Assembly: GCA_015057305.1 (NCBI GenBank)
Contig: SVES01000026.1
Location: 1-49,042, forward strand
Length of the DNA stretch: 49,042 nt
Direction of reading: 5' to 3'
Origin: Pseudobutyrivibrio ruminis
GTDB taxonomy: Bacteria; Bacillota; Clostridia; Lachnospirales; Lachnospiraceae
Positions 3,468 through 28,105 of this stretch are shown here, piece after piece; position 1 is the first letter of the stretch, and each line of letters opens with the position of its first letter. The notes under the pieces were generated by a model. It ran no database searches. It saw only the letters and a list, made by a program, of their open reading frames with translations, and was not told where the DNA came from. Position numbers and translations under genes: made by a program.

Positions 3468-3681
3468 GCTGATAGCTCACAAAAATTAATGACTTCTTGT
3501 GGGCTACTTAAGGAAAAAGCCCACAAGAACTTGGCTTCGCCAAGCAATATTTTCTTTCAGAAAATTTTGGTCTATGTCCGGTTCTTGTTTTTCTGATGAA
3601 AAACAAAAACCTATGCTATTTTTTGAGAGTATAGCGAAAGCGATGAAAAAAATAGTATGAATGTTTGTGAGCGTAATCAGC
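3468..3681. repeat. Palindromic repeat family, copy D (echE-echF gap)
   Basis: The ends GCTGAT-AGCTCACAAA (3468-) and TTTGTGAGCGTA-ATCAGC (-3681) are inverted, with the same asymmetry (AG versus TACGC between outer arm and core) seen in the copy at 9227-9315. The core is TCACAA instead of TAACAA. The interior folds locally: CTTGTGGGCT/AGCCCACAAG (3496-3505/3518-3527), CTTGGC-TTC-GCCAAG (3530-3544) and TTGTTTTTC-TGAT-GAAAAACAA (3585-3606). It starts 8 bases after the echE stop. Whether it attenuates echF transcription is unknown. Confidence 0.65.
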
Positions 3682-3709: not shown

Positions 3710-4108
3710 ATGGGACAATTTTTACCATTTACTAAACAAGTTTTGAAGAACCTCTTCTCTGAGCCTGCTACTACTCAGTATCCTTTTGTACCAAAAGAGT
3801 ATCCAGAGCGCACAAGAGGTCATGTGGATATTAACAAGGATCAGTGCATCCTTTGTGGAATGTGTATGCGTAGCTGCCCTCCAGGGGCAATCACAGTTGA
3901 CAGAGCAGGAAAGACCTGGTCTATCAACCGCTTCGACTGCATACAGTGTGGCTACTGCGTAGAGAAGTGCCCAAAGAAGTGCTTATCTATCACACCAGGC
4001 TATCAGGAGCCAGGCCCTGAGAAGTTCAACTACTCAGTGGATGTTCCTTATGAGCCACCAAAGCCAGCTGCTAAGCCAGCAGCAAATGTGGCTAAGCCAC
4101 AAGCGTAA
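3710..4108 (+). CDS. echF: Ech hydrogenase subunit F (2x[4Fe-4S] ferredoxin-type)
   Basis: 132 residues with two CxxCxxCxxxC motifs: C46/49/52/56 and C77/80/83/87. This NuoI-like subunit accepts electrons from soluble ferredoxin and relays them to EchC. The C-terminus from about residue 105 is a Pro/Ala/Lys-rich tail with no cluster ligands. The start is preceded by GGAAGGAG (3697-3704). It is the last ech gene and is followed by a strong terminator. The large gap from echE makes separate translation or transcript processing possible. Confidence 0.94.
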   Translation: MGQFLPFTKQVLKNLFSEPATTQYPFVPKEYPERTRGHVDINKDQCILCGMCMRSCPPGAITVDRAGKTWSINRFDCIQCGYCVEKCPKKCLSITPGYQEPGPEKFNYSVDVPYEPPKPAAKPAANVAKPQA

Positions 4109-4121
4109 ATAATGAATTGCG

Positions 4122-4158
4122 GAGCCAGCATGGGGATATCCCCAGCTGGCTCTTTTTT
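4122..4158 (+). terminator. Intrinsic terminator of the ech operon
   Basis: GAGCCAGC (4122-4129) and GCTGGCTC (4145-4152) enclose a second stem GGGG/CCCC, followed by TTTTTT (4153-4158). It lies 13 bases after the echF stop and ends the hydrogenase structural operon. Confidence 0.92.
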
Positions 4159-4177: not shown

Positions 4178-4487
4178 CTGTCACAATAGCAATGGATTTT
4201 ATAGGATTTTAAGCAGCCCAGTGACAGAAATATGCTTGGTTATGTTAACAATTGTTTTCACTGTCACAAAATCAACGGGAATAATAGATTCTTATGTTAC
4301 CTTGTGACAGAAAAAACCACTATTTTAGATATTAATGTTAAATACTGTCACAACGTAATGAATATAAGGCATTTCCAGGGAATATTGTGACAGTATTTTG
4401 TTGAAAGAACCATAAGCGGGATTATTACTGTCACAAGCAAATGGAAACATCAAAGAAATCCATCTATCATGTGACAGTGATATTAAA
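4178..4487. repeat. Array A: eight alternating inverted octamers CTGTCACA / TGTGACAG
   Basis: Octamer starts are 4178 (CTGTCACA), 4220 (AGTGACAG), 4261 (CTGTCACA), 4303 (TGTGACAG), 4345 (CTGTCACA), 4386 (TGTGACAG), 4438 (CTGTCACA) and 4480 (TGTGACAG). Start-to-start distances are 42, 41, 42, 42, 41, 52 and 42 bases, i.e. four helical turns with one five-turn step. Spacers are unrelated in sequence. Taken as pairs they form stems of 7 to 13 bp; the pair at 4345/4386 extends to AATACTGTCACAA / TTGTGACAGTATT. The array fills the gap between the ech terminator and the 3' end of the nuclease-like gene. No known repeat class was recognised. Confidence 0.9.
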
Positions 4488-27789: not shown

Positions 27790-28105
27790 TGTGACAAATT
27801 ATGGAGATTATTTTGTGCTGTCATGTTGTGCTGTCATGTTGTGCTGCCATGTTGTGCTGTCACAATTAATGCGATAAATATGGGATAGCCACAGCCTTTG
27901 TGACAGTATTGAGCGGGATTGCTGCAAATTACATTGATTTCTGCAACAATATAATAAATCTGTGGACTAAATTTAGCCTTTGCAATAGAAAAATGTCACA
28001 GCCATCTGAATAAAGGAAATATTTGCGCTGAATCTGTGACATTCGCCATTTAAGCTTAAATTTTGACTGTCACAAAGCGGTTTTATAGTCCTGCTGGTGT
28101 GACAG
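27790..28105. repeat. Array B: second phased inverted-octamer array (CTGTCACA / TGTGACAG)
   Basis: Sites start at 27790 (TGTGACAA), 27831 (CTGTCATG), 27857 (CTGTCACA), 27899 (TGTGACAG), 27941 (CTGCAACA, degenerate), 27993 (ATGTCACA), 28035 (TGTGACAT), 28067 (CTGTCACA) and 28098 (TGTGACAG). Several steps are 41-42 bases and two are 31-32, i.e. four or three helical turns. The pair 27993/28035 reads AATGTCACAG / CTGTGACATT: C to A on one side is matched by G to T on the other, a compensating change. Same motif as array A, 23 kb away. It fills the gap between the two surface-protein genes; otherwise that gap holds only the terminator, site 2 and a leader hairpin. Confidence 0.85.
27814..27866 (+). 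repeat. Four tandem 13-bp repeats inside array B
   Basis: Four near-identical units of TGTGCTGTCATGT (last unit TGTGCTGTCACAA), containing the octamer variants at 27818, 27831, 27844 and 27857. Probably a local slippage expansion of one array site. Confidence 0.85.

Follow-up and report, generated by a model that had tools for sequence, protein, structure and literature searches.

The 49,042-nucleotide stretch of DNA analyzed here (the window; contig SVES01000026.1 of assembly GCA_015057305.1) is one contig of a 113-contig genome of Pseudobutyrivibrio ruminis. Behind a ferredoxin-type gene it carries an array of a short octamer, CTGTCACA, alternating with its inverted form, TGTGACAG, and beside that array lies a gene for a nuclease-like protein (Table 1). 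We found that relatives of this gene and arrays of this type are recurrently paired across the genus, and several independent tests back that pairing.

Octamers start at 4178, 4220, 4261, 4303, 4345, 4386, 4428 and 4470 and alternate strictly in strand, as a first-pass annotation of this DNA had reported. It had counted all eight as the same octamer pair; seven are exact, and the one at 4220-4227 reads AGTGACAG, with one mismatch. The steps between them are 42, 41, 42, 42, 41, 42 and 42 base pairs (bp), so that a previously claimed step of 52 bp does not exist in the window array, and the last octamer ends at 4477 rather than 4487. The array is more regular than had been claimed. The first-pass annotation had ruled out chance; 13 exact octamers occur in the window, whereas 100 dinucleotide shuffles averaged 1.11 and in no case reached 13. 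The spacers had been described as sharing no sequence; they retain a degraded common core, detectable only by comparison with the units of relatives. We trained a profile of the core on 94 units taken from elsewhere than this genome; compared with 1000 shuffles of their own interior, three of the four units of the array scored above all shuffles and the fourth above 976 (24 of 1000 reached it).

Table 1. Coordinates of the array, its units and other features in the window.
Feature	Position	Strand	Remarks
Octamer array, eight alternating octamers = four ~50-bp units (CTGTCACA ... TGTGACAG)	4178..4477	.	unit linkers 33, 34, 34 bp
Array unit 1	4178..4227	+	right octamer AGTGACAG with one mismatch
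Array unit 2	4261..4310	+	
Array unit 3	4345..4393	+	49 bp
Array unit 4	4428..4477	-	core score higher in reverse orientation; weakest core match of the four
Nuclease-like gene, 253 amino acids	4510..5271	-	stop codon 33 bp from array
Terminator-like hairpin with T run, belonging to the ferredoxin-type gene (3710-4108), immediately ahead of array	4122..4158	+	read by eye
Second, degenerate CTGTCACA array, without nuclease gene	27857..28105	.	units 27857-27906, 27993-28042, 28067-28105 (39 bp)

Pairing of nuclease genes and octamer arrays

The window protein consists of an N-terminal helix, three strands and a long helix, followed by a C-terminal domain with the restriction-endonuclease-like fold of the PD-(D/E)XK superfamily. 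The first-pass annotation had named the gene only as a nuclease-like neighbor; it proved to be the key to the pattern. Residues E150, D180 and E195 were invariant across 51 aligned proteins. No Pfam family matched the window protein at E <= 0.001 (Tis1_ImmP matched two of six relatives, best E 0.00045), and there was no match in NCBIfam. Our first guess for the N-terminal domain, an AP2-like or arm-type fold, was not confirmed, as comparison gave no convincing match.

Clustering of the genes around the first six CTGTCACA loci revealed that the nuclease-like gene recurs beside the arrays of other array-bearing genomes, as six proteins 48-51% identical to the window protein. A profile of the six gave 162 matches in 28 of 29 Pseudobutyrivibrio genomes, with 1 to 11 per genome. 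The six top matches (>447 bits) were confined to the five genomes with CTGTCACA arrays, and the next match scored 304 bits. At 129 of the 162 loci we looked for exact 8-mers that occur in either orientation inside a span of 500 bp (both orientations required, score >=5), and 90 had an alternating inverted array within ~2 kb of the nuclease relative; first passes of this test had found arrays at 64 of 90 loci and at 28 of 40 (one duplicate among the 40). As controls we took 80 stretches of 4.7 kb from 20 regions chosen arbitrarily in these genomes; 1 of the 80 had an array, and that array was of the same type. A finer scan of the 20 control regions brought up one more array of this type, and a nuclease gene was found in none of them. 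Long TACTGCCT arrays were seen there (L208 from 19075, in genome G003, with 12 scored sites, and L223 from 14531, in G002, with 20), with no nuclease gene around them within the 20 kb. In 75 of the 90 array loci the array lay mainly upstream of the gene, 64 of these being <=190 bp from the start codon; in the other 15, the window array among them, it lay downstream.

The octamers are clade-specific. They followed the protein tree, with TTATCGCAA, AAGGTATAAC, GGATGCAT, TACGGAA and AGATAGTA as examples of clade motifs, and other family members have octamers without TGTGA, the sequence that the first-pass annotation had likened to Crp/Fnr half-sites; 39 different 8-mers were counted among the 64 array loci of the first 90 nuclease loci. 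Pairing was also evident at the level of whole genomes. A loose 7-mer pattern of the window octamer matched in 7 of the 29 genomes, five of which (G000, G004, G006, G010 and G024) have real CTGTCACA arrays; what remains of an array in G023 amounts to one and a half units, and the lone match in G020 is off geometry and probably due to chance. The set of genomes with the matching nuclease subfamily is identical to these five. Unrelated AGGTATAA arrays occur in six genomes (G003, G007, G021, G023, G024 and G028), and the same six, and only those, hold the matching nuclease clade (170-178 bits). A degenerate pattern, TACTRYCT, which spans several clades, matched 15 of 29 genomes and did not serve as a test.

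Similarity of motif was compared with protein identity for 85 array-bearing proteins (3570 pairs). The best correlation was at residues 21-60, where the three strands are predicted (rho 0.235, 0 of 999 permutations); in other regions rho ranged from 0.011 to 0.095. When pairs of close relatives were set aside, residues 21-60 alone remained positive (0.117). Protein pairs with alike nuclease halves and unlike N-terminal halves often had different octamers. For example, L198 and L189 have C-terminal halves that are 91% identical and N-terminal halves that are 36% identical, and their octamers are ATGCATCC and ACGGAATA.

The gene family extends beyond the genus within Lachnospiraceae, whose members live in gut and rumen. 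Of 150 Lachnospiraceae genomes, each of a different genus, 52 had a relative at E <= 1e-15, and 11 of 30 fetched loci passed the array test, one of them (L268) looking irregular. In many metagenome-assembled genomes (MAGs; for example L256, L258, L265 and L278) the nuclease gene started no more than a few hundred bases from a contig end, as would happen if assembly had stopped at a repeat upstream of it. A search of 398 genomes of the phylum at E <= 1e-30 gave six matches: the genome of the window itself, four others from its family, and one further genome by the C-terminal domain only. At that threshold the full-length gene family thus seems almost restricted to Lachnospiraceae.

Unit anatomy and helical phasing

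The arrays are built of uniform units. Of 107 distinct units from CTGTCACA-type loci, 101 were exactly 50 bp long, and they have a common asymmetric core, approximately CTGTCACA-R-GGGYAACGRAAATATWGGGTTTGTAGG-..-TGTGACAG. Among 84 distinct linkers between units, counted without rows in which the spacing lay outside 1-199 bp, 70 were 23-25 bp, eight were 33-35 bp, three were 44-45 bp, one was 14 bp and two were 86 and 98 bp. Exceptions by one helical turn, as had been claimed for the window array, where there is none, do occur among relatives.

The spacing is helically phased. Distances between successive octamers of the same orientation peaked at 51-53, 62-63, 72-75, 83-84, 93-94 and 104-106 bp, and the best period was 10.5-10.6 bp (nR2 57.6, compared to <=9.0 in 500 uniform draws). 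This test used the arrays of the first 90 nuclease loci with distances collapsed per 8-mer (n=97 distances, which are not fully independent, since overlapping registers of a single motif may count twice). The first-pass annotation had named an even spread of gap lengths and the absence of arrays elsewhere as outcomes that would count against its reading. Instead, the distances cluster at multiples of the period, and intergenic arrays are present in other species.

Just inside the octamers, the arms of the units showed no covariation, the first pair being complementary in 47 of 101 units compared to 47.2 expected. Complementarity at the level of chance fits independent half-sites better than a hairpin, and we rejected a hairpin or cruciform as the conserved feature on this basis. 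The same count bears on a transcribed RNA structure or CRISPR-like guide array (CRISPR, clustered regularly interspaced short palindromic repeats), for which it could be said that the inverted octamers could pair and that the units are regularly spaced. We regard this as scarcely credible. The spacing tracks turns of the DNA helix, the spacers have a common core and look inherited rather than acquired, and Rfam searches of the arrays returned tRNAs and sub-threshold chance rows only.

The part of the earlier reading that placed a protein on helically phased sites is supported indirectly by the phasing, the lack of hairpin covariation and the intergenic recurrence. A rival in line with that reading would make the arrays a chromosome scaffold that anchors an unrelated host protein, the nuclease gene being merely nearby. 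Whole-turn spacing and intergenic location would suit such a scaffold, but the octamers differ by nuclease clade, co-occurrence is exact in two independent motif families, and arrays adjoin nuclease genes at a rate far from that of the controls (90/129 vs 1/80). A scaffold of that kind is therefore very unlikely, and less likely than binding by the encoded protein.

Gain, loss and length change of arrays, and dispersed copies

Arrays have been gained, lost and changed in length at matching sites. Those without a nuclease gene occupy intergenic slots that other species have empty or filled by another array family. The slot between the ferredoxin-type gene and hypF, both genes of which were seen in 17 genomes, holds a CTGTCACA array with a nuclease gene in G000 and a TATTGAAA array with a nuclease 48% identical in G027. 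In G002 (ATATAGTC), G022 (TACTGCCT) and G005 (four TGTGATAA sites) it holds an array without nuclease, in G011 one TACTGCCT unit, and in the remaining 11 genomes no array. The octamers in this slot in G002 and G022 are those beside a nuclease of the same genome (L200, L287), and an array of G027 in a different slot (L330) likewise matches the octamer at the nuclease locus L299 of its own genome. The region upstream of a response-regulator gene contains five units in G006, three in G010 and none in G004, G013 and G023; a third slot holds five units in G006 and just CTGTCA in G010. Comparison of G002 with G003 at the ferredoxin-hypF slot revealed AATAATA flanking the array on both sides, consistent with a 7-bp target duplication.

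Of 18 AGGTATAA loci that were fetched, six have a full nuclease gene, the stop codon of which is usually overlapped by the first octamer, and 12 have none. Three of these 12 dispersed arrays (L428, L429 and L440) retain residues 244/245-266, the final 22-23 codons of the nuclease gene; in L429 a hairpin-rich insert lies between these codons and the array. Five others (L430, L431, L432, L435 and L441) have a common left module of ~120 bp, the edge of which is sharp, at GATTTGTTAATT or a close variant. Most copies also have in common the last AGGTATAA unit with its TCA(A/C)AGAAA tail. If the repeats were moved by a known transposase of the RAYT (REP-associated tyrosine transposase; REP, repetitive extragenic palindrome) or IS200/IS605 type, with the nuclease as a passenger, dispersed copies that share their end units might be expected, and Y1 transposase genes (PF01797) were matched in 10 of the 29 genomes, including G000 and G024. 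However, three of the five CTGTCACA-array genomes (G004, G006 and G010) had no Y1 match, on which ground we rejected a RAYT/Y1 transposase as the driver, and the arms lack hairpin-type covariation. The passenger scenario is, in our opinion, highly improbable.

Two features of these regions were read by eye. The left module (L430, ~590-710, and the four sister loci) contains a promoter-like TTGAAT...TATAAT pointing out of the array, and arrays often begin directly after terminator-like hairpins. Positions 3481-3617 of the window hold a hairpin-rich intergenic repeat of ~130 bp with >100 listed copies across the genus; similar hairpin strings are inserted in AGGTATAA units of L429 and L434, apparently with TAT on either side.

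The arrays might alternatively be operators, with the protein acting as a repressor of its own gene and of genes near dispersed arrays, and movement being a by-product of recombination. The 64 arrays close to a start codon, the displaced active-site lysine (discussed below) and the promoter-like stretch beside some dispersed AGGTATAA arrays would all suit such a regulatory module. We consider it unlikely, however, because 15 of the 90 arrays are downstream of the gene, the three acidic residues are invariant in all 51 aligned proteins, and a genome with one or two nuclease genes may have up to ~8-10 array loci, several of them after gene ends, which exceeds the needs of autoregulation.

A search of a genome collection for the octamer triple gave 72 stretches, 28 of them from Pseudobutyrivibrio and the other 44 mostly single matches in unrelated bacteria. 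Several of the latter have repeats of their own. A Corynebacterium MAG (L040, 6554-7284) has a CTGTCACAGATTCCAT inverted-repeat array with steps of 40 and 43, arms longer than the octamer and an unrelated core. Near-identical CTGTCACAGATCG ... CGATCTGTGACAG hairpins occur on three contigs of Microbacteriaceae PS02066 (L044, 1234-1335; L064; L106), two in tandem with steps of 29 and 34 (sequence read for L044). An RGIG5021 MAG (L041, 4062-4190) has palindromic repeats of TGTGACAGGGGACGGG type with a REP-like look. Single CTGTCACA/TGTGACAG triples recur in Bacteroides-type genomes, many with steps of 45 and 41-42 (L042, L046, L059, L061, L068, L074, L080, L085, L086, L090, L094 and L098).

Interpretation and comparison with known systems

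We consider it probable that the array is the set of binding sites for the protein encoded beside it, and that the pair belongs to a large Lachnospiraceae family of cognate nuclease-array modules which resemble RAYT-REP systems but have a different enzyme and different sites. Binding of the array by the encoded protein is strongly suggested by the sequence comparisons; cutting and spreading we infer from the fold and from comparative genomics. In this model, the N-terminal domain (the three-strand region, residues ~21-60) would read the octamer, as the motif-protein correlation suggests. Whole-turn spacing would align neighboring protein units along the same face of the helix, which may permit a cooperative filament or synapse. 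The C-terminal domain, judging by its fold and conserved acidic residues, would nick or cut DNA. Comparative genomics suggests that such nicking or cutting may promote both the amplification of units inside arrays and the copying of arrays to other intergenic sites, in some cases together with the nuclease gene's 3' end. An array beside the start codon may also let the protein restrict its own expression.

Several observations weigh against this interpretation. Of the 129 genus relatives, 39 were array-negative in the exact 8-mer test, which misses degraded arrays, and 19 of the 30 family-level loci failed it, several of them being cut by contig ends. The probabilities of exact co-occurrence by chance, 1 in 118,755 for CTGTCACA and 1 in 475,020 for AGGTATAA with genomes taken as independent, are weakened because the genomes are related and the trials are not independent. 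The motif-protein correlation is small in size, and L323 and L319 have nearly equal octamers despite 96% C-terminal and 39% N-terminal identity. No convincing match was found for the N-terminal fold. The usual (D/E)XK lysine is absent at E195+2 (E195-H-L), which makes activity uncertain; K148 is invariant and K212 nearly so. No cognate was identified for the array of G005 in the ferredoxin-hypF slot, the target duplication is a single case in an AT-rich stretch, and a search for the empty counterpart of the dispersed array L430 gave short chance matches only.

The module looks like an undescribed type of selfish or self-regulating genetic element; in the literature searched (titles and openings of abstracts, preprints not covered), we found no description of cognate nuclease-array modules. 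More tentatively, and with somewhat less than even confidence, we suggest a class of self-propagating bacterial DNA elements whose helically phased arrays would be kept and spread by their own PD-(D/E)XK-fold protein, with no known transposase involved. The DNA-reading half of this protein may evolve quickly or be exchanged, so that near-identical nuclease halves, such as those of L198 and L189, serve different octamers. The natural protein-octamer pairs represented by the 39 different 8-mers offer ready material for studying the reading of DNA by a small domain, and the phasing predicts distinct effects of half-turn and full-turn shifts. The arrays also account for a class of Lachnospiraceae intergenic repeats, some of which may break MAG assemblies.

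Among PD-(D/E)XK nucleases, the closest known systems include TnsA of Tn7, Bax1, VRR_NUC and Holliday junction resolvases. The C-terminal domains of six proteins out of six match the PADLOC candidates PDC-S68 and PDC-S69, and a defence or conflict module can be imagined in which the nuclease attacks invading DNA and is retained or kept in check by the arrays on the chromosome. The many diverse copies per genome, under purifying selection, would be in keeping with such a role, but the PADLOC models have 1202-1273 (S68) or 289 (S69) positions, the match is partial, covering for the window protein only positions 1090-1216 of 1221 at the end of PDC-S68, and the N-terminal part is different. Among plasmid and phage records, five and three matched, none reaching 80% query coverage, and nine IMG/VR contigs matched at most over residues 132-253. 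We rejected phage or plasmid cargo on these results, and a defence role seems to us quite unlikely.

CRISPR and other interspersed-repeat arrays resemble those described here in their regular repeats and differing spacers. CRISPR arrays are defined by direct repeats of ~20 bases or more and unrelated spacers, whereas the present arrays have 8-bp strand-alternating repeats, a common core in the spacers and whole-turn spacing.

The closest parallel is with RAYT-REP systems and the related bacterial interspersed mosaic elements (BIMEs) and REPINs, together referred to as REPtrons. RAYTs are a gene family with its own extragenic repeat, and the 3' end of the gene is reported to travel at times with repeats, including BIMEs (PMC2817692); the features of REPINs compared here are those of PMC3116915. 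In both cases a gene is paired with its own repeat in alternating orientation, enzyme and repeat coevolve, and dispersed repeats occur in the genomes that hold the gene, sometimes with the gene's 3' end carried along. The enzyme, however, is a PD-(D/E)XK-fold protein here and an HUH/Y1 transposase there, for which PF01797 gave no match in three of the five CTGTCACA-array genomes, and the sites are non-palindromic octamers on a 10.5-bp raster rather than hairpin-forming palindromes. Because enzyme and repeat differ in this way, we do not file nuclease-array modules under RAYT-REP. The flanking of the gene by repeats (90/129 loci) and their co-occurrence (5/5 and 6/6 genomes) support the statement that the modules work like RAYT-REP systems, not that they are members of them. 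If our interpretation is correct, they would represent a second, independently evolved RAYT-REP life style in bacteria, based on a nuclease fold with no known capacity to move DNA by itself.
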